Shown piece after piece: positions 4,399 through 39,439 of a DNA stretch of 47,494 bases. The notes below the pieces were generated by a model that searched no databases, had not been told where the DNA came from, and worked only from the letters and a program-made list of their open reading frames with translations. The stretch's first letter is position 1; every line of letters begins with the position of its first letter. The stretch is taken from positions 1 to 47,494 of the forward strand of contig NZ_JAMXOT010000033.1 in the NCBI RefSeq assembly GCF_024220515.1, given 5' to 3'. A program made the position numbers and the translations under genes. This stretch comes from Oscillatoria sp. HE19RPO. Its GTDB lineage: Bacteria; Cyanobacteriota; Cyanobacteriia; Cyanobacteriales; Laspinemataceae.

Positions 4399-6474
4399 TT
4401 AACTTCGGGGCGGAAAATGCGCCACAAGGGTTGCCACATCAGGATGTGCTCGCACGATGGCTTCCGGTTCTACTAATCTGCCGGATAAGCCAAAGGCTTG
4501 ATGTTGATGAGAAGCGGAGGTTAAAACTAACAAATCATCGGTTTTGAGCATTCTTGATACTTTTCTAACAAAGTTTCCCCGCAGGCGTTGAACGGGAGTT
4601 GTTTCATTCAATCCAAAGGCTTCGAGGTCAAATTCTATGTCTTTAGAACTTCCAGTGACAATTAATAATAACTGTAAGTTAGCCTTGAGTTCAGTGGCGA
4701 TGGTGTTGGCAATTTCTAGGGTTTGTTTAAATTCCCCAGAGGTAGTTTCGGCGAGGGTGGCGGCGACAAAAATTCGGGCGGTATTCTCGATAGGTTGGGG
4801 AAATCGGGTAATCAGAACTGGGACTGGCGATCGGCGCACAATCCGATCGATCACGTTGCCAAAGAAATTTTCCCGATAGGTAGAGAATCCTTTCCACCCA
4901 CAGATAATTAAGGTGGCATTGCGTTCCGAGGCACTGCGAACGATCCCACCGGCGATCGCCGCATCAATTCGACCAATGGGTTCTACGGCTACCGTTGCCG
5001 CATGAGCAATGGTTTCTGCTGCTGCTAATAACTGGGTTTGTTGAATTCTTTGTTCCGGGGAAATCCGGCCATTTTTATCCGAAAGAACGTGCAAAGGAAG
5101 CAATGTACCCTTGGAGTTTTTGGCCAACAAAATCGCCAAATTTAACAGATTATCTTCGGTACTGGGGTTGGCAACGGGAACTAAAACGCGATCGGTCAAC
5201 CCTTGAGTTTCACTGGTTGTCGTTTTCTCCTCGGGTTTTACCCCTTTTCCCCATTTGGCAGTAATCCAGGGAGAAGCAATACAACTGACGAGAATCATTG
5301 CAATAATGCCATTCACGGTGACTTCATCCACCAGTTCTATCTCATAAGCAACGGTAACCGCTGCTAGGGTAGAAGCGGCTTGAGCAACGGACAAACCAAA
5401 TACGACCATTGTACTGGGAAAGGTCCAGCCAAATAGCTTCCCTGAACCCCAGGCGGCTAGATATTTAGCAATAAATTCAGCAGCAATCATGACCCCGGCG
5501 ACTACGAGCGATCGGGGTTCACTAATCAGAATCATCGGGTCAATTAACATCCCCACAGACAGCAGAAAGAAGGGGACAAAGAGCGTATTTCCAATAAACT
5601 GAATCCGATTCATTAACGGACTCAAAGCGGGAATCAGTTGAGTAATCGCCACTCCCGCTAAAAATGCTCCAATAATGGCCTCAATTTCAATCAGTTGAGC
5701 CACATAAGAAACCACCAGCAAGGTAGCCACCACAAAGGTAAATTCTGCTCCCTCATCATGACCAAATTTTCTGAAAAACCATCGCCCGAGTTTGGGAACT
5801 CCCCACAAGGTAGCGAGAGTATAAATTGCCAAGGCTGGAATGAGAAACAGCCAAAAGTCTAGGGTTAATTCACCTCCGTATGCTTTAACCACAACGGCTA
5901 ATACTAACAATGCCAGAACATTCGTGATTAAGGTTCCGCCCAATGTGGCCGTTACTGCTTGCGCTCGCATGATTCCCAAGCGGGTCAAAACGGGCAATGC
6001 CAGCAGGGTATGAGAGGCAAAACAAGAAGCAACAAGAATTGAGGCTAACCAGCTATATCCTAGCAACAACATCGCCCCAGTTCCTAATATCATCGGAATG
6101 GCAAAGGTAGATAGACCAAAGACAATGGCTTTATCCGCATTGAGTTTGAGGTCATCTAAACTGGTTTCTAACCCCGCCATAAACATTAAAAATAATAATC
6201 CAACTGTGCCTAAGAGCACAATCGTTTCATCCCGGGCTAAGAGTCCCAAACCGTAGGGTCCGATGACAACTCCAGCTAGAATTAGACCCACAATTCCCGG
6301 CAGTTTTAATCGCTCAAACACCAAAGGCGCGACGAGCATCATTGCCATGATAATCAAAAAAATGGCAACGGGGTCTTTAATGGGGCCGCTTAAAACTTGA
6401 GCCAAGGGAGTTTCTATCAACAGTCTGGTGATTTCTCCCCCATTCGTTTCAATGAACGGCCAAAGGTTTGCCAT
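4399..6474 (-). CDS. CPA2-family cation:proton antiporter with C-terminal universal-stress-protein domains
   Basis: A 691-residue fusion of a membrane antiporter and a cytosolic stress-protein module. Residues about 35-420 contain a dozen or so hydrophobic segments in the Na+(K+)/H+ exchanger arrangement, including PGIVGLILAGVVIGPYGLG near 59-77, FLMFMAGLETSLDDLK near 96-111 and IEAIIGAFLAGVAI near 263-276, all hallmarks of CPA2 (NapA/KefB-like) exchangers. From about 430 the protein is soluble and looks like two tandem USP domains: the first has RVLVPVANPS at its start and an ATLIICGWKG strand, the second starts near RIFVAATL. This architecture is common in cyanobacteria and is usually tied to ion or pH homeostasis; the exact ion is unknown. 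The ATG at 6474 is the natural start. Confidence 0.88.
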   Translation of the reverse strand: MANLWPFIETNGGEITRLLIETPLAQVLSGPIKDPVAIFLIIMAMMLVAPLVFERLKLPGIVGLILAGVVIGPYGLGLLARDETIVLLGTVGLLFLMFMAGLETSLDDLKLNADKAIVFGLSTFAIPMILGTGAMLLLGYSWLASILVASCFASHTLLALPVLTRLGIMRAQAVTATLGGTLITNVLALLVLAVVVKAYGGELTLDFWLFLIPALAIYTLATLWGVPKLGRWFFRKFGHDEGAEFTFVVATLLVVSYVAQLIEIEAIIGAFLAGVAITQLIPALSPLMNRIQFIGNTLFVPFFLLSVGMLIDPMILISEPRSLVVAGVMIAAEFIAKYLAAWGSGKLFGWTFPSTMVVFGLSVAQAASTLAAVTVAYEIELVDEVTVNGIIAMILVSCIASPWITAKWGKGVKPEEKTTTSETQGLTDRVLVPVANPSTEDNLLNLAILLAKNSKGTLLPLHVLSDKNGRISPEQRIQQTQLLAAAETIAHAATVAVEPIGRIDAAIAGGIVRSASERNATLIICGWKGFSTYRENFFGNVIDRIVRRSPVPVLITRFPQPIENTARIFVAATLAETTSGEFKQTLEIANTIATELKANLQLLLIVTGSSKDIEFDLEAFGLNETTPVQRLRGNFVRKVSRMLKTDDLLVLTSASHQHQAFGLSGRLVEPEAIVRAHPDVATLVAHFPPRS

Positions 6475-7167
6475 AAACGAACTCCTGGTAATTGTATTGG
6501 AAGAAGTAATTTTTGGTAATTCAGTTTATAACATACTTTTCAAAATTTTGCACTCTTATAAACCTGCCAAAATATGTGATTTCAAACCAGTCAAATATTT
6601 CTCAGGAGAGATTAACCCTGATTTTTGAGGGACAACTGACCCAAATTTACAAGACCTGATTTTTAGAAGTTAACAAATACAAGATATGCTTTTTATTTAT
6701 AGAATTAAAATCAGCCCATTAACTCTCCCTAGAGGAATATTTATCAGGCTTAATTTGGCAACGTCCTGGTTAATAGATTAGGAAAGGCACTCGAAGTCAA
6801 ACGAATCGAATCAATCTGATGACAATTTGTTTTTAAATGATGATGATGCTACCCGGATCAGCCGGAAAGGGGGGAATTTTGGCTGGGGTCGCCCAGAACC
6901 GAGGCGATCGCCCCTGACTTCATCCCGGATTGAGTACAGCACCCCGGGCTGAAATTCCCAACTGAGACGGAATTCGGTTGTTAAAGGTCTATAAAAACCC
7001 GCACACTCAAGGGTGGGGCTACACAGACAAAGCCTGCCTACGCAGGCTGAAGAGTAAAATAGGTCTTTCACAACCGGATTTGGTATGAGACGAGCGATCG
7101 CCCCGAACTCGGAGCAGCTTTGTTAAACTGAAACCTAGGCTGTACAAAGGGATGACTGAGTAGCAAC
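6475..7167. other. Long intergenic region between divergent genes, containing a palindromic repeat element
   Basis: About 690 bp separate the antiporter from the Nif3-like gene. The first 300 bp are AT-rich and must hold the antiporter promoter; I see no convincing sigma-70 pair by eye. From about 6840 there is HIP1-rich sequence and then a palindromic repeat (6965-7090, listed separately). I see no coding frame with good support; the 86-codon minus-strand frame over 6811-7071 runs through the repeat. Confidence 0.5.
6965..7090. repeat. MITE-like palindromic repeat, family A, copy 1
   Basis: The element ends in CAACCGGATTTGGTAT (7071-7086). An imperfect inverted copy, AATTCGGTTGTTAAAGGTC, sits at 6971-6989 and pairs with GTCTTTCACAACCGG near the right end. 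Inside lie a hairpin with the core GCCTGCCTACGCAGGC and the phrase GGGGCTACACAGACAAAGCC. The same internal phrase and the same ends recur near 21.7-22.3 kb, 25.7-26.1 kb and 29.8 kb, so this is one dispersed family. No coding capacity; mobilised in trans if at all. Confidence 0.75.
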
Positions 7168-29980: not shown

Positions 29981-32900
29981 ATGTCATTTGTTGGTTTACA
30001 TATTCACACCGATTACAGTCTGCTTGATGGGGCCAGTCAGATTCCGAAACTGATTGACAAGGCGATCGAGTTGGGAATGCCGGCGATCGCCCTCACGGAT
30101 CATGGCGTCATGTACGGGGCGATCGAACTGATTAAAGCCTGCCGAGGAAAGGGAATTAAACCGATTATCGGCAATGAAATGTATGTGATTAATGAACCCT
30201 TAGACACCACAGCCCGTTGCCGTCGCTATCATCAAGTGGTGTTAGCTAAAAACACCAAAGGCTATAAAAATTTAGTTAAATTAACCACTATTTCCAGTTT
30301 AGAAGGAATTCACGGCAAAGGCATTTTTGCCCGTCCTTGTATTAACAAAGAACTGTTAGAACAATATCATGAAGATTTGATTGTCACCAGTGCTTGTTTA
30401 GGAGGAGAAATTCCGCAAGCGATTCTGCAAAACAAACTAGATGTCGCCCGGAAAGTGGCGAAATGGTATAAAAAACTCTTTGGGGATGATTATTATTTAG
30501 AACTCCAGGATCATGGGTCTCAGGAAGACCGGATTGTGAATGTGGAATTGGTGAAAATTGCCCGAGAACTTAATATTAAACTGATTGCCACCAATGATTC
30601 CCATTTTATCTCTTGTTATGACGTAGAAGCTCATGATGCGCTGTTATGCATTCAAACCGGCAAGCTGATTACCGAAGATAAGCGACTGCGCTATAGCGGG
30701 ACGGAGTATATGAAATCCGCCGAAGAGATGGCGTTGTTATTTAGAGATCACTTGTCTGATGAGGTGATTCAAGAGGCGATCGCCAATACCCTGGAAGTTG
30801 CCAGCAAAATCGAACCCTACCACATTCTTGGCGAACCTCGAATTCCCGATTTCCAATGTCCTCCCGGTGAAACTCCCAACACCTATGTGGAATGGATTGC
30901 CAAAGAAGGACTGAAGGAACGCTTTAAGGTTAAAAGCTACGAAGAAATCCCCCAAGTCTATCGGGACCGACTGGTTTATGAAGTGAAAATGCTGCAACAA
31001 ATGGGGTTTGCGGCGTACTTTTTAGTCGTTTGGGATTATATCAAATATGCACGCGATCGCGGCATTCCTGTCGGTCCGGGACGGGGGTCTGCCGCCGGGT
31101 CTCTCGTTGCCTATGCCATGCAAATTACCAATATTGACCCGGTACATCATGGGCTTTTATTTGAGCGCTTCTTGAACCCAGAACGGAAGTCCATGCCTGA
31201 TATTGACACGGATTTCTGCATCTCTCGCCGGGATGAAGTCATTCAATATGTGACTGAAAAATACGGCAAAGAACGGGTTGCCCAAATTATCACCTTTAAC
31301 CGCATGACCTCCAAAGCGGTGTTAAAAGATGTCGCCCGGGTGTTAGGAGTTCCCTACAAAAAATCCGATGAAATGGCGAAATTAATTCCCGTGGCGCGGG
31401 GAAAACCGGAAAAATTAGCAGTGATGATTTCTGATAAATCCCCCGCACCAGAATTTCGAGAAGCCTATGTTAAAAACGAAGAAATTCCCCGAGATGATGG
31501 GACTGTGGTCGAATTCCGCCAATGGTTGGATATGGCAATTAGAATTGAAGGAACGAACAAAAGTTCTGGAGTTCATGCTGCCGGAGTCGTGATTTCTGCT
31601 GACCGCTTAGATGAAATTGTTCCTTTACAAAAGAATAACGATGGCGCAACCATTACCCAATATCCGATGGAGGATTTAGAATCTCTAGGGTTATTAAAAA
31701 TGGACTTTTTGGGGTTGAAGAATTTAACCATGATTCAGAAAACCCTAGACTATATCAAGGAAACCAAACATCTCAACTTTGACCCTTATCAGTTTCCTGC
31801 TGAAGAACGCAGAGCACAGGAAGTCCGAGGCAGAGGCACTAAAAAATTCCCCGAGGATATTGATAAAACTTACAAGATTTTAGCCAAGGGAGACTTGGAA
31901 GGGGTCTTTCAATTAGAATCCTCGGGGATGAAACAAATTGTGCAAGAATTGAAGCCTTCCAGTTTGGAAGATATTTCTTCAATTTTGGCTTTGTATCGTC
32001 CGGGTCCGTTGGATGCGGGACTGATTCCCAAATTTATCGATCGCAAACATGGACGGGAAGCGATTCAATATGAACATCCCATGTTAGAAACTATTCTGAA
32101 TGAAACCTACGGGATTTTGTGTTTACCGCAAGGGACACAGATTAACAAACCGGATGGGTCTACGGTGGCGATCGAAAACATTCAACCCGGAGACTGGGTA
32201 CTGACTTCAAATGGTCATCAAGTTTGGAAAGCTAAGGTTGCCAAACAATGGCGCAGTGGGTCCAAAGAAATTCTCAAAATTACCCTCTCTAGCGGGACGG
32301 TGATTTATACCAGTAAATCCCATCGATTCTTAACTCCAGAAGGAGACAAGGAAGCGTGGAAGTTGAAATCTGGACCCGGAGGCTTGAAAAATGCTCATAT
32401 TTATAGTTCAGTTCTCTATGAAAAGTGGCCGATTTCTAACAATTCCAAACAGCTTAATCCCAATGAAGCCTATCTGTTAGGATTATTCATTGGCGATGGC
32501 AATCTGGTGTCATCTACCCCGAATATTGCTTGTTCCACAGAAGAAACCGCCGAGTATGTGGCAAATCTAATCGGGTCAACCTGGGGAGGTGAACCGAAAT
32601 ATTATTTCCATACGCGATGCTGGTACGCTTACTCGAAATTCAAGACCCAACCGAAACCGACTCCGTTAACCCAATTTATGGATGGGTTGTATGGTGGACG
32701 GAGTTGGAAGGTGAAATCGCAACAGAAACATTTACCGGCAGATGTGTTGGATTATTGCGAAGGCGCTCGCCTCGATTTGTTACGCGGTTTATGGGATAGC
32801 GATGGCTGCTATCATCCCACCTTATTATATTTCCGCAGTTCCTCTCCCCAGTTATTGCAACAAGTGGGGTTATTGTTAGGCAGCCTAAAAATCTCTTATG

Positions 32901-35344
32901 CGGTGTTGGACAATTACGTTTATGTCCTCGATCGCACTCGGTTTAAATCCCGGTTAGGCAAATCTCAACTTCCGGCAAAACTGGATGAAGGGATTGTTGA
33001 TAATTATTTAGCAGTTGCTGCCAATCGGTTTAGCGAATTGCTCAACGAGGCGATCGCCACTACCGATTCCAAAACCAGGCAGGCGATTAACACAGCCCTC
33101 CAAAATGCCCCACTGTTTAAACCCAAAGCATCCCAATACAAACAAAAATTAGACCGCTGGGACGAATTTTACCACCATCTTTACGCAGAAACCTATCTGC
33201 AAGATGCCCGATATGTGTATGTTATGGCAGTAGAAGAGGCAGGCGTCGCCGAATGTTTTGACATTCAAATGGAAGACCAATCCTCACCCTATTTTCTAGC
33301 CGAGGGCGTGGTTACTCATAATTGCTATCAAGAGCAAATCATGAAAGTCGCCCAGGATTTAGGGGGATATTCCTTGGGTCAAGCGGATTTATTACGCCGC
33401 GCAATGGGTAAAAAGAAACCCGAAGAAATGAATAAACATCGGGAACTTTTTCTGGATGGCGCAACAAAAAATGGAGTCTCCAAATCCATTGCAGAAAATT
33501 TGTTTAACCAGATGCTTTTGTTCGCGGAGTATTGCTTAAGCTACGATACGGAGATATTGACCGTAGAATATGGCCCAATGGCGATCGGGCAAATCGTCGA
33601 AAAGCAAATCCCCTGTACCGTTTATACGGTCGATGGTGAGGGCTATATGTACCGCCAAACCATCGCCCAATGGCATCATCGGGGTCAGCAAGAGGTGTTT
33701 GAATATGCCTTGGCAGATGGTCGAGTGGTTCGGGCTACCAAAGACCATAAATTCATGGTAAAAGCCGGTCAGATGTTGGCGATTGACGAGATATTTGAAC
33801 AGGGTTTACAACTGATAGGAGTCTCAGAAAAACTGGTCTCCCGTCAATTGTTGGGAATTCAAGACGTTTATGATATTGGCGTTGAACGGGACCACAATTT
33901 TATTCTCGCCAATGGGTTGGTGGCGTCAAACTGCTTTAACAAATCCCATTCCACTGCCTACGGTTATGTAACCTATCAAACGGCTTATTTGAAGGCGAAT
34001 TATCCCGTCGAATATATGGCGGCTTTGCTGACTTCAAATAGTGGTGACCAGGATAAAGTTCAGAAATATATCGCTAACTGTCAAGAGTTAAATATCACTG
34101 TCCAAGGACCGGATATTAATCGGTCGGGGGTGGATTTTACTCCGGTGGATGCCAATGCGGAAAAGGGAACGATTTTGTTTGGATTGTCGGCGGTGAAAAA
34201 TATTGGCGACAATGCGATTCACGCTATTTTGACCGAACGAGAGGCGAATGGTCCGTTTCACTCTTTGGCGGATTTGTGCGATCGCATTAATCTCCATACG
34301 GTCAACAGTCGCGCCTTAGAAGCGTTGATTAAATGTGGGGCGTTGGATGGTCTCAATCCTAACCGCAAACAGGCCATTGAATATATGCCTCTGGCAATTA
34401 AATGGGCGCAGGACCGGGCCAAGGAACAAGAAACCGGCCAGCTTAATTTATTTGACCAGTTAGCGGTGATGACCGAAACTTCTACTTTTGAATCCGCCCC
34501 GGTTCCCCCGAATATTGCAGATTTTCCGGTGGAGGAAAAGCTGCAATTTGAGAAAGAATTGCTGGGATTTTATGTATCTGAACATCCCTTAAAAAATGCG
34601 GGCAGAATTGCCGAACACTTGGGGATTGAGGTGGTGAGTCTGGGGAAACTGGATGAACAGAAATCCCGGACCAAAATCAGTGTACTGGTGGTGTTGACGG
34701 AAGTTAAACAGATTCTCACGAAAAAAGATGAACGCCGCATGGCTTTTCTGCAAATGGAAGATATTGAAGGGAAGGCAGAAGCGGTGGTGTTTCCGGATAC
34801 TTATGAACAAATCCACGAGTTGCTGATTCCGGATACGCCGATTTTGATTGATGGGAAAGTCGATCGCCGGGACGATCGCACTCAGTTGATTGTGGAAGAA
34901 GCCAAAGTTTTGAAATTGGATGAGTTAACCCCACTCCGGGAAGCGGTTGTACCGACGAGGATCGCGGAGATGATTTTGCTAGAACTGACGACCGATCTCA
35001 TCCATACACCGGCAATGCTCGATCACCTGAAAGTGATTCTGCAAGAACATTCCGCAGACAAAACCAAGGCAACGGTCCCGGCAGTTGCCATCATTGTCAA
35101 AGCGGGCGATCGCCATCGCGCTGCTGCAATTTGTGGACCCAATTTCTGGGTCCAGGATTGTCATAATGTGGTCACCGCCCTCAATGCTGCTGGATTCCCA
35201 GCGGTGGTGTATTCTCTCCCTCCTGGGAATGGGATGGGGAATTTACCCCCATTTTCTGACCCGCTTCCGTTCCAGCAGCTTACGGTTGCCTATCTCAACT
35301 CGATTCGGTCCATTTTGCAGGAATTGGATGAGGATAACGACTGA
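29981..35344 (+). CDS. dnaE: DNA polymerase III alpha subunit (DnaE), single uninterrupted gene with two inteins
   Basis: One 1787-codon frame encoding the replicative polymerase. The PHP domain opens the protein ([20 protein letters not shown] from residue 7). The polymerase carboxylates are Asp407 and Asp409 in PDIDTDF and Asp575 in [10 protein letters not shown]. Intein 1 occupies residues 714-1114 and intein 2 residues 1185-1317; splicing both out leaves 1253 residues with junctions YGIL-CYQEQIM and FAEY-CFNKSHS. The fingers, the C-terminal OB fold ([20 protein letters not shown]) and the end region follow. In most cyanobacteria the gene is split in two loci at the second junction, so a single intact gene with an unsplit intein there is unusual. 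GGAG precedes the ATG. The stop codon lies in a family B repeat terminus. Confidence 0.96.
32120..33322 (+). other. Intein 1 of DnaE: 401-residue intein with LAGLIDADG homing endonuclease
   Basis: Starts at Cys714 (block [21 protein letters not shown], then PGDWVLT) and ends at His-Asn1114 before Cys+1. Block B is visible as [18 protein letters not shown] with the TxxH pattern. The insert carries the two LAGLIDADG-type motifs [12 protein letters not shown] and [12 protein letters not shown], each ending in the expected Asp-Gly, so the endonuclease may be active. Blocks F/G are [19 protein letters not shown] then VVTHN. It interrupts the conserved YGIL-YQEQ motif of the polymerase. Confidence 0.93.
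33533..33931 (+). other. Intein 2 of DnaE: continuous 133-residue mini-intein at the split-DnaE site
   Basis: Starts at Cys1185 with [20 protein letters not shown] and ends [23 protein letters not shown] before Cys+1 (CFN). The first ~100 residues match the N-half of the split cyanobacterial DnaE intein (including [20 protein letters not shown]) and the last ~36 match its C-half. Where the split occurs elsewhere, this protein runs on through [20 protein letters not shown] with no stop, no new start Met and about five residues fewer than the two halves combined. No endonuclease domain. It should splice in cis. Confidence 0.95.
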
Positions 35345-35482: not shown

Positions 35483-37375
35483 TCACGGTGCCTGCCACAA
35501 CTTCACCGTCTCATCTCCTGCGGCAGTGGCGAGGGTTTTGCTATCGGGACTGAAGGTGACGGCAAAGACGCGATCGCTGTGGTCGGTCAGGGTACAAAGG
35601 GGCTTGCGTTTGCGGATATCCCAGAGGATGACGGTTTGATCCCGGCTGCCACTGGCGACTAATTTGCCATCGGGACTAAAGGCGATCGCATTGATCCGTT
35701 CGGAATGTCCCGGTAAGCGGGTGATTTGTTCACCTCGACCCACATCCCAAAGGACCAGAGACCCGTCAAAATTGCCGCTGACGATGGTTTGGCCATCAGG
35801 ACTGAATGCAACCGCATTGACCAGGCCAGAATCGCCGTAGAGAGTAAAAAAGTGCTTGCCGGTGTGGACATTCCACAGCATCAGGGTGGTGTCGCGACTG
35901 CCGGAGGCGAGGGTAATGCCATCGGGACTAAAGGCGAGGGAATAGACCCAACTTGAGTGGCCCCTGAGCTTGCGGATGGCTTTGCCGGTGTAGGGATTCC
36001 ATAAAATCATTTTGCGGTCCCAACTGCCAGAGGCCAACATAGTCCCATCGGGACTGAAGGCGAGAGCATCTACTAATTCAGAATGGCCGGAAAACCATCC
36101 CCCAAGGTTCCGAATTTTTTCTCCGGTTTCGGCGTTCCAGAGAATGATGCTTTTATCCCGACTGCTACTGGCAAACAGGGGAGATACGGGACTAAAGGCG
36201 ACGGAGAGGACTAAATCGGAATGACCCTCTAGGGTGCGGAGGCGATCGCCGGTGATGGGATTCCAGAGAATTACCGATTGATCTGCGCTACCACTGGCTA
36301 AGGTATTGCCATCGGGACTAAAGGAGATCGCCCAGACCCAACCTTGATGACCTTTGAGGGTCCGCAGGCATCTCCAGGCATGGGGATCTGCCTGGGGTGG
36401 GGTTGCCGGTGGAGGGACGCTGGGGACGGTTGGCGGTAAACTTTCCTCTTCTAAGCTATTCAAAAAAGTAGGTCGCAGGGAATGCAAGTCTTCCAGAATC
36501 TCCGTTACAGACTGATAGCGTTCATTCACGCGGTCTTGCAAGAGTTTTTCTAGAATTTGGGCTAAACCGTCACTGACATCGGACCCAATTTTCCAGAGTC
36601 GTTCTCTCCAGATCCATCTTCCCTCCAGGGGGTCGTACAAATCATCCACCCACTCTCCCGTTAACAGTTGAATGCAGGTGACCCCGAGACTGTAGAGATC
36701 GCTGGCGGGATAGGCGAGTCCCCCCCGGATCTGCTCAGGGGGTGCATATCCTTCGGTCCCAATGGTGCTCCCGGTTCGGGCGAGTCCCAGACTGGCTAAA
36801 TGTTTAGAAATGCCGAGATTGGTGAGGACTAATTGTCTGTTATGGCGGCGACGAATATTATCGGGTTTGATATCTCGGTGAATAATATTGCGATCGTGGA
36901 TGGTTTTGAACACGGGTAATAGGTGATCGAGCAGTTCCCAGATTTGGGGTTCTCGGAACGCCCCATGTTGTTCCATCTCTTCGAGCAAACTTTGGCCGTC
37001 GATAAACTCGATCGCCATGTACAGGCGTTTGTCTTGCTCAAAATAATCTAGCAACTTGGCAATCTGCTGATGATCTCCCATTGCCTGCCGACGTTGAGCA
37101 TCGTGACGAAAGACTTCAATCGCCTTTTCCAGGGTACTACTGTGGACGGAGGCTTCTAAGCCATTTTCGACCGGCAGCAGTTGCTTGATAATGCAGTACC
37201 TGTCCTGGTTTTGTTGATCCACCGCCAAAAAAGTTCGTTCCATACCCCCTTCTCCTAGCAGTTGGATGGTCCGGTAGCGCTCTTTGAGCAGCAAATGCGA
37301 TCCACAACTTAGACAAGTCTGGATATTCGGTGGGTTTTGGGGATTTTGGCAAGCGGGATTCACGCAATAAGTCAT
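35483..37375 (-). CDS. SpkB-like zinc-ribbon Hanks-type kinase with seven WD40 repeats; probable pseudokinase
   Basis: A 630-residue protein, fourth in transcription order of a kinase array. The N-terminal zinc ribbon has Cys pairs in YCVNPACQNP and CLSCGS. The kinase domain (about 35-300) has LLGEGGMERTFLAVD (Gly loop), Lys in CIIKQLLP, and HRDIKPDN, but the DFG motif reads NLG (LVLTNLGISKHL, bases 36812-36820), removing the Mg2+-binding aspartate. APE is APPEQ. A Pro-rich linker then leads to seven WD40 blades, each with a GH and a WN/WD end, e.g. HQGWVWAISFSPDGNTLASG. The propeller should bind partner proteins. The frame starts four codons earlier, but relatives begin M(S/T)YC, so I use 37375. 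Loss of catalysis is inferred. Confidence 0.9.
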   Translation of the reverse strand: MTYCVNPACQNPQNPPNIQTCLSCGSHLLLKERYRTIQLLGEGGMERTFLAVDQQNQDRYCIIKQLLPVENGLEASVHSSTLEKAIEVFRHDAQRRQAMGDHQQIAKLLDYFEQDKRLYMAIEFIDGQSLLEEMEQHGAFREPQIWELLDHLLPVFKTIHDRNIIHRDIKPDNIRRRHNRQLVLTNLGISKHLASLGLARTGSTIGTEGYAPPEQIRGGLAYPASDLYSLGVTCIQLLTGEWVDDLYDPLEGRWIWRERLWKIGSDVSDGLAQILEKLLQDRVNERYQSVTEILEDLHSLRPTFLNSLEEESLPPTVPSVPPPATPPQADPHAWRCLRTLKGHQGWVWAISFSPDGNTLASGSADQSVILWNPITGDRLRTLEGHSDLVLSVAFSPVSPLFASSSRDKSIILWNAETGEKIRNLGGWFSGHSELVDALAFSPDGTMLASGSWDRKMILWNPYTGKAIRKLRGHSSWVYSLAFSPDGITLASGSRDTTLMLWNVHTGKHFFTLYGDSGLVNAVAFSPDGQTIVSGNFDGSLVLWDVGRGEQITRLPGHSERINAIAFSPDGKLVASGSRDQTVILWDIRKRKPLCTLTDHSDRVFAVTFSPDSKTLATAAGDETVKLWQAP

Positions 37376-37558
37376 ACCAGAAAACACTCAAAAGTGGTTA
37401 TATAATAGTCAGTCTTTACCAAAATTTTGGTCTTGGCACGTTTACCGAATGGGTCCATCGGTGCTGATTTTCAAGAACTATTTGGTATTACAGACTACCA
37501 ATATTCGGGAATTAATCAGCTTTTTCTGGTTCACACTCGTTTTGTTGATGGCCTAATT

Positions 37559-39439
37559 TTATGTTTTATTTTCAGTTGACAAGACAGCTTGCCAAATTTT
37601 GATTGTATTATCCCAACTGCTACTCACTAATTTGTTGCCTTCTGGACTAAAGGCAACGGAGGTAATAGGTCCAGAATGCCATTTTAAGGTACAGAGTTCT
37701 TGTCCGGTTCTCAAATGGAACAATCTAATTAGCCGATCGCGACTGCCACAGGCGATAATTTCTCCATCGGGACTCACGGCGACGGCTTGGACCCAATCTT
37801 TCACGGTTTGCAAGCTGTAGGTCTCGGTGTGGGTCTCTAAATCCCACAGTTTCACGGTTTTGTCTTCACTGCCACTAACTAACTGTTGACTGTTGGGGGT
37901 AAAGGCAACGGCCCTGACTGAGGCCAAATGTCCCTGGAGGGTGGTTTGCTCTAAGCCACTGCTCAAGTCCCATAATTTGATGGTATGGTCATCGTATCCA
38001 CCCCCACTGGCTAAGGTTTTCCCATCCGGGGCGATCGCCACCGATTCCACATACCCCGTATGTCCAGTCAGGGTCCCCACGGCCATCCCCGTTGTCAGGT
38101 CCCACAGTTTCACGGTCCCGTCAAAACAACCTGCCGCTAGTATTCCCCCATCGGGACCGATCGCAATCGACAACGGATAGGCATTTAATCCATCCCAGGT
38201 CTGCAATAAGTTCCCACTGCCCAAATCCCACAGCTTGAGGGTGTTATCCAAGCTGCCACTGACCAGAATTTGGCCGTCGGGACTAATCGCCAGACAACTC
38301 ACCCATCCGGTATGAGCGGTTAAAGTCCCGATCGCATTCCCGGTGGCCAAATGCCAGACCTTAATGGTTTTATCATAACTACAACTGGCTAAGGTTTCTC
38401 CATCGGGGCTAATCGCCACGGCGATCGCATAGTTCTGATGACCTGTCAAGGTATGAACACATTTCCAGGTGGTCGGAATTGAGGGGTTAATCGTCGGGGT
38501 TGCTTTGGGGGATGTTGGGGATTTGGACATAAATCCTTGGGGAATCGACCAATAGAGGTCTGCCAGCGCCCCTCGGGCACTTTCGTAGCGATCGTTTACC
38601 CACTCCTGCACCATCTTATCAATCACTTTTTCTAAGCGGCGATCAATCGTTATCCCTTTTTTGATTAATTCTTCTCGCCACAACCAGCGGCCCTTCATCG
38701 GGTCGTACAATTCATCGGGGTTGGTATCAGTCATCAAATGAATACAAGTCACCCCCAAACTGTACAAATCACTGGCCGGATACGCTTTCCCTCCCCGCAG
38801 TTGTTCAATGGGTGCATAGCCTTCGGTCCCGATTTTGGTTCCCGTTTTCACTAAAACGTTATTACTGAGTTGTTTCGCTACACCAAAATCAATTAAAACA
38901 TATTTTCCATCGGATTTTTGTCTTAAAATATTTTCCGGTTTAATATCTCGATGCACCACATTTCTATCATGGATATACTGCAAAACCGGCAATAAATCTA
39001 ATAATAAATTCTTGATTTTTTCGCTAGAAAATGGCCCATTTTCATCCAACTCCTGTAACAAGGTTTTGCCATCGATAAACTGTTGCACTAAATAGAGACG
39101 TCCGTCAATGGCAAAATCCGCAAATAAGGTAGGAATCTGGGGATGATCTCCCAGTTGTAACAGTCGTTGAGCTTCCTGGGCGAACATTTTAGTCGCCGTT
39201 TCCAATAGTTCTGAATTTTGCTGCACTTGGGGTAAGGGCAAAAATTGTTTAATCACACAGGTGGCATTTAAGCGATCGGCATCTTCCGCGATGAAGGTGC
39301 GCCCAAATCCCCCTTCCCCCAACAGGGAAAGTGCTCGATAGCGATCGTTCAGTTGTAACTCGGTGCCACAACTTTGACAAAACTTGATACCGGCTGGATT
39401 CTCGGGATTTTGACAGTAGGGATTGAGACAATAGCTCAT
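37559..39439 (-). CDS. SpkB-like zinc-ribbon Hanks-type kinase with seven WD40 repeats
   Basis: A 626-residue paralogue with the same layout: zinc ribbon (SYCLNPYCQNPENPAG, CQSCGT), Ser/Thr kinase (LLGEGGFGRTFIAED, Lys in CVIKQFLP, HRDIKPEN, DFG in VLIDFGVAKQL, APIEQL) and a seven-bladed WD40 propeller from about residue 325 (HQNYAIAVAISPDGETLASC first, SGPITSVAFSPEGNKLVSSS last). All catalytic residues are present, so it should be active. Blades 3 and 6 are the most diverged, and one blade has an inserted GGYDDH. The start MSYC is family-typical. It is separated from the next gene upstream by 436 bp that contain a repeat element, so it may have its own promoter. Confidence 0.92.
   Translation of the reverse strand: MSYCLNPYCQNPENPAGIKFCQSCGTELQLNDRYRALSLLGEGGFGRTFIAEDADRLNATCVIKQFLPLPQVQQNSELLETATKMFAQEAQRLLQLGDHPQIPTLFADFAIDGRLYLVQQFIDGKTLLQELDENGPFSSEKIKNLLLDLLPVLQYIHDRNVVHRDIKPENILRQKSDGKYVLIDFGVAKQLSNNVLVKTGTKIGTEGYAPIEQLRGGKAYPASDLYSLGVTCIHLMTDTNPDELYDPMKGRWLWREELIKKGITIDRRLEKVIDKMVQEWVNDRYESARGALADLYWSIPQGFMSKSPTSPKATPTINPSIPTTWKCVHTLTGHQNYAIAVAISPDGETLASCSYDKTIKVWHLATGNAIGTLTAHTGWVSCLAISPDGQILVSGSLDNTLKLWDLGSGNLLQTWDGLNAYPLSIAIGPDGGILAAGCFDGTVKLWDLTTGMAVGTLTGHTGYVESVAIAPDGKTLASGGGYDDHTIKLWDLSSGLEQTTLQGHLASVRAVAFTPNSQQLVSGSEDKTVKLWDLETHTETYSLQTVKDWVQAVAVSPDGEIIACGSRDRLIRLFHLRTGQELCTLKWHSGPITSVAFSPEGNKLVSSSWDNTIKIWQAVLSTENKT

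Follow-up and report, generated by a model that had tools for sequence, protein, structure and literature searches.

The dnaE gene of Oscillatoria sp. HE19RPO, located on a contig stretch of 47,494 nucleotides (NZ_JAMXOT010000033.1) that we refer to as the window, is an open single gene carrying two inteins, of 401 and 133 residues. The second of these is an unsplit member of the DnaE intein family at the site FAEY/CFN. In many cyanobacteria, dnaE is in two pieces and the two proteins are joined via a split intein. The unsplit intein of the window is probably a natural cis-splicing mini-intein that arose by re-fusion of neighbouring split halves of this kind. The evidence for this comes from the sequence of the intein itself, from its closest relatives, in several of which an endonuclease gene separates the two halves of dnaE, and from trees and counts of changes that bear on the direction in which the two forms have been interconverted.

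The unsplit intein of the window

The translation of positions 33533-33931 contains no stop and extends from the Cys that follows FAEY to the Asn that precedes CFN, reading [14 protein letters not shown]...[13 protein letters not shown]...ASN. The features of the gene, numbered as in the window, are as follows.

33533..33931, + strand: unsplit DnaE mini-intein of 133 residues at the site FAEY/CFN, from translation and from NCBIfam, structure and alignment matches
33533..33814, + strand: part equivalent to the N-terminal half (IntN) of split inteins, residues 1-94, from comparison with split DnaE inteins
33815..33829, + strand: five-residue linker, at the place where split relatives have a stop codon, an endonuclease gene and a new start codon
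33830..33931, + strand: part equivalent to the C-terminal half (IntC), residues 100-133, without a start Met, from comparison with split DnaE inteins
29981..35344, + strand: dnaE, DNA polymerase III alpha with two inteins, 1787 residues, from its single open reading frame (ORF), genome search and domain matches
32120..33322, + strand: first intein, 401 residues with an in-frame LAGLIDADG domain, between YGIL and CYQEQ, from matches to LAGLIDADG_3, PF14890 and PF14528
33932..35344, + strand: C-terminal extein of DnaE, whose first residue is the +1 Cys, from ORF and translation

The intein belongs to the DnaE family both by its insertion site, which is shared, and by its homology to IntN and IntC. 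Two NCBIfam models match it, NF007079 aligning through its final positions (775-872 of 876) with residues 1-98 and NF005616 through its first (3-36 of 449) with residues 100-133; from the lengths of the models and the positions of the matches, we read these two as representing the split dnaE-N and dnaE-C genes, respectively. The closest solved chains are the Nostoc DnaE inteins 2keq (E 4e-53), 4kl5 and 4kl6, each a single chain of 137-144 residues. A structure model of the 133-residue intein has a mean predicted local distance difference test (pLDDT) score of 63, which is low, and a fold search with it returns Npu DnaE 4kl5 as the top match. The fused Npu DnaE intein is thus the nearest likeness in structure and sequence, in being one chain and in its near-equal length. 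In those chains the halves were reportedly joined in the laboratory, and by contrast the intein of the window is natural.

Cys1, T69 and H72 of block B, Asn133 and the +1 Cys, the residues that we take to carry out splicing, are all present, and their columns are invariant in five unsplit rows. The penultimate residue is Ser where His is usual, a substitution that a passage in PMC5874633 describes for DnaE inteins. Between three pairs of unsplit Laspinema, the presumed genus of the window, the ratio of nonsynonymous to synonymous substitution rates (dN/dS) of the intein is 0.10-0.21, which indicates purifying selection. Taken at the level of sequence, the intein would be a natural cis-splicing homologue of the split DnaE inteins of Npu, Ssp and others. 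It shares their insertion site, sequence family and catalytic residues but differs in having one ORF, in which a five-residue linker replaces the IntN tail, stop and start, such that trans-splicing would not be needed. A split intein by definition is encoded by two genes with one half each, whereas the window has one ORF, and no second dnaE-N or dnaE-C was found in the whole genome (a 511-contig draft, given as 100% complete), the sole other dnaE match being one of 67 residues at 37% identity.

These results agree with an earlier note made from the letters of the window alone, which had described a contiguous intein of 133 residues at FAEY/CFN, without stop or IntC start Met, in one intact dnaE (here the ORF 29981-35344), had proposed its homology to the trans-splicing DnaE inteins, and had pointed to a second dnaE-N or dnaE-C as something to look for. 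It had also given 1253 residues for the spliced product, the same figure that is obtained when both inteins are subtracted (1787-133-401 = 1253).

Split relatives and the gene between the halves

The family of the window was represented by 14 genomes, eight of them from Laspinema. Within these eight, three carry the unsplit form, namely the window genome (G000), G004 and Laspinema palackyanum D2a (G008, L025), the latter two being open as in the window and having 93% and 89% protein identity to it, respectively. Two are split (L. olomoucense D3b, G003, and Phormidium pseudopriestleyi FRX01, G005) and in two more (G002, G007) nothing interrupts the site; in G006, which is 87% complete, dnaE was not found. 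A sample of the phylum (386 genomes) gave an IntN-type match in at least 103, with the open unsplit form in the window and G170 among the matches listed, and a second family (61 genomes) gave such a match in at least 32, with G170, G437 and Microcoleus sp. CSU_2_2 (G414, L026) open and unsplit among the matches listed. In the sets searched, the unsplit form therefore amounts to six genomes in three lineages, each of which stands beside split forms of its own genus. The intein is 133 residues long in the three Laspinema, 137 in the two members of the genus g39 (G170, G437) and 145 in G414. Three further candidates (G424, G430, G443), which appeared in the search table as one long frame, were not counted as unsplit because stop codons interrupt that frame. 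A dnaE-N with a cyanobacterial split intein was also seen in a metagenome bin recorded as Chloroflexaceae bacterium SM1_2_4 (L054), possibly through a binning error.

The earlier note had taken it as general that split halves lie far apart, and in this respect it needs amendment. In G003, G005 and many other relatives, the dnaE halves share a strand and are separated by ~0.8 kb, within which a free-standing LAGLIDADG protein is encoded in a frame of its own; in the two Laspinema, IntN, the endonuclease ORF (266 and 254 residues) and IntC lie on one strand within ~1.2 kb. An example is Lyngbya sp. CCAP 1446/10 (L033), where dnaE-N stops at 5812 and the endonuclease gene occupies 5814-6593, its 3' end overlapping the IntC start. 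A comparison of 67 genomes, picked to be rich in neighbouring halves, contained 6 unsplit, 15 labelled split with the endonuclease gene, 15 with neighbouring halves but without an intact one, and 31 labelled distant. An open endonuclease ORF of 252-266 residues lies between the halves in 13 of the 67 and an interrupted one in two (G423, G432). One genome labelled distant, G400, probably has neighbouring halves cut by contig ends, because its dnaE-N runs into the start of the endonuclease (99.9 bits).

The protein belongs to a recognizable family (PF14528, E 1.2e-10 and 3.8e-11; 2dch, E 1.4e-5). Both LAGLIDADG motifs were found with their catalytic Asp, and this motif Asp is invariant in 13 rows; the structure model has a mean pLDDT of 53. 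Its dN/dS is 0.115-0.194 in six of 10 pairs, the other four being saturated. The enzyme is predicted to cleave the intein-free dnaE site. Phages have related free-standing endonucleases, with 156 records that all stay under 60% identity and best rows at 25-33%; viral relatives reach 29% identity at best. No match was detected in the window genome. In the phylum sample, six of the 386 genomes match it: four between neighbouring dnaE halves, one as a relic (G267) and one weakly (G120, 27% identity, with stops).

Not every gap is of this type. In L154 (G024) and L155 (G228), the ~0.85 kb between the halves contains unrelated ORFs (224 and 226 residues), in which the endonuclease motifs were not found. 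In Microcoleus vaginatus HSN003 (L032, 5783-9123), the endonuclease gene between the halves is broken by an insert of ~2.5 kb containing long ORFs that by eye have the look of a transposase. The endonuclease was not found in the gaps, of ~1.3-1.6 kb, between the neighbouring halves of L182 and L183 (G431, G434), which are of the same genus as G432, where most of it is kept.

Fractured genes, reportedly described by Dassa et al. in 2009, are split inteins with an intervening endonuclease gene, of another endonuclease family and in other genes. The row of IntN gene, free-standing endonuclease gene and IntC gene in 13 relatives is such a fractured-gene layout around the textbook split intein. It differs in having an endonuclease of the LAGLIDADG family, in lying in chromosomal cyanobacterial dnaE and in leaving relics in dispersed genes, and the window itself differs in having no intervening endonuclease gene. 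A literature search that did not extend to Caspi 2003 and Dassa 2009, where such a layout is most likely to have been described, gave no report of an unsplit DnaE intein at FAEY/CFN or of an endonuclease gene lying between the two halves of dnaE.

Relics of the endonuclease gene were sought in the 300 bases before dnaE-C, minus the ribosome site and start, by scoring against the C-terminal part of the enzyme. In three g39 genomes with halves far apart (G435, G267 and G441), a 3' relic lies directly upstream of dnaE-C, scoring 30.8, 29.7 and 26.6 bits, respectively, against 11.1 for the best of 15,200 shuffles, from which it follows that dnaE-C and the end of the endonuclease gene moved as one. 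By eye, G441 also has a piece resembling the endonuclease start just before the 3' relic. Downstream of dnaE-N, the scores were 33.2 for G430, 30.3 for G443 and 11.2 for Limnofasciculus, against 11.3 for the best of 17,300 shuffles. Apart from those of the three g39 genomes, no distant dnaE-C region exceeded 3.2 bits (152 regions, 90 of them listed, many being overlapping copies of one place and that of L195 cut wrongly); the power of this upstream scan is limited, since G430 and G443, which have a short 3' relic by eye, scored 2.0. The scan therefore speaks neither for nor against an endonuclease-bearing ancestor of all split DnaE inteins.

Re-fusion or retention of the unsplit state

Re-fusion would have taken the following course. 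In the ancestor, dnaE-N with IntN, a free-standing LAGLIDADG endonuclease gene and IntC with dnaE-C would have lain side by side, and an in-frame deletion of the endonuclease gene together with the IntN stop and the IntC start would have joined the halves in one ORF. The precursor would then splice out the mini-intein within one chain and the first intein likewise, giving DnaE of 1253 residues. Given that the halves are neighbours in many close relatives, with the endonuclease gene between them, the unsplit form could easily be reached by a simple deletion.

The earlier note had left the choice between an ancestral and a re-fused state open, and of these we now moderately favour re-fusion. In the intein protein tree, unsplit rows occupy three positions, nested among split forms; this corresponds to three changes, or four on DNA. 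Were splitting irreversible, at least 9-11 independent splits at one place would be needed under the best root, compared with 3-4 events for re-fusion alone. So many separate splits are unlikely because the split point is shared, unless a homing cassette carries the split state. A single origin of the unsplit state was tried and is rejected on DNA trees, one unsplit clade being 118 log-likelihood units worse with 26 rows and 107.8 worse with 67 rows (p 1e-4). The linkers add a further indication from G414, where the in-frame linker is similar to the leader of dnaE-C in the adjacent-split G413 (score 26, p 0.001 against shuffled linkers) and to that in G424 (score 23, p 0.0055); the position of the former start codon reads ACG.

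A number of observations weigh against re-fusion. On intein protein, one unsplit clade is not rejected (16.7 log-likelihood units worse; p 0.203 in the approximately unbiased, AU, test). The roots of the trees are not known, and a homing cassette moving the split state sideways would weaken the parsimony count. In the extein tree of g39, split G438, G267 and G435 are nested inside a paraphyletic unsplit G170 and G437, which on its own would suggest a change from unsplit to split there, or horizontal movement, and which counters simple vertical re-fusion in that genus. For the G414 linker, four of the six split leaders compared showed no significant resemblance, in a series of 12 tests in all. 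The g39 linker, an IntN tail joined to IntC codon 2, fits both directions, and the linker of Laspinema showed no resemblance to split leaders or tails in 16 comparisons (lowest p 0.114). To these may be added the low confidence of the structure model of the intein. Two supposed remnants were dropped: the g39 linker, first read as one, for the reason just given, and a Shine-Dalgarno-like AGGAG in the Laspinema linker, suggestive by eye, which failed a shuffle test.

Against this background, it is conceivable, though we think it unlikely, that the ancestral unsplit state has been kept in three lineages and that splitting has occurred repeatedly on entry of a free-standing endonuclease gene or its cassette. 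The nesting of split forms among unsplit ones in the g39 extein tree and the outcome of the protein test both fit this reading, and the phage relatives of the enzyme, being free-standing, could bring a start and a stop of their own when they insert. The number of separate splits that it demands at a single position, given these trees, the rejection of one unsplit clade by the DNA trees and the likeness of the G414 linker to an intergenic leader speak against it. Horizontal replacement, in which an unsplit allele came from another Laspinema by recombination of the dnaE region, would say little about this lineage, and we rate its chances as similarly low. It draws on the disagreement between intein and extein trees in Laspinema, where the G000 extein groups with that of split G005 (0.99) and its intein with those of unsplit G004 and G008 (0.99). 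The exteins next to the unsplit intein are, however, not raised in identity (93-95% to all congeners), and no fresh homing tract is therefore seen there; moreover, such replacement concerns spread and is compatible with an earlier re-fusion. The joining of two split genes by faulty assembly or binning, which the earlier note had judged unlikely, is highly improbable. While the assembly is a 511-contig draft, the frame is open without a stop, separate dnaE-N or dnaE-C genes were not found in the genome, and two congeners carry the same unsplit form. Re-fusion thus remains the explanation that we prefer, with moderate confidence.

Other features and meaning of the finding

The first intein of the window dnaE belongs to the full-length LAGLIDADG inteins, and from these the second-site endonuclease of the relatives differs in being encoded apart, by an ORF that has a frame, start and stop of its own. 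The 120 bases before the first intein (32000-32119) are 97.5-99.2% identical among the five congeners having that intein and 82-84% identical to the two congeners without it, whereas the intein itself is 94-95% identical among carriers and the downstream flank has no step in identity; the upstream segment looks like an old co-conversion tract. Downstream of dnaE, on the minus strand (35483-39439), are two adjoining ORFs that by eye both resemble serine/threonine kinases carrying WD40 repeats.

How split inteins originate and whether a split essential gene can be healed have usually been argued from end states only. Here, dnaE occurs within one genus in an intein-free state, split around an endonuclease gene, and unsplit, and wider relatives supply decayed and dispersed stages with recognizable relics, such that the order of events becomes testable. 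For the DnaE inteins employed in protein engineering, the unsplit inteins would provide naturally cis-splicing counterparts. The endonuclease is a candidate for the agent that broke dnaE. As a tentative proposal, to which we give somewhat less than an even chance, the DnaE split intein may in part of the cyanobacteria be a mobile cassette, in which a free-standing, phage-type LAGLIDADG endonuclease gene located in the intein breaks dnaE and promotes homing into alleles that are intact. Once this gene is lost, the halves would either disperse, giving the classical state, or be re-joined, and the splitting of this gene would be reversible, having been healed at least three times.
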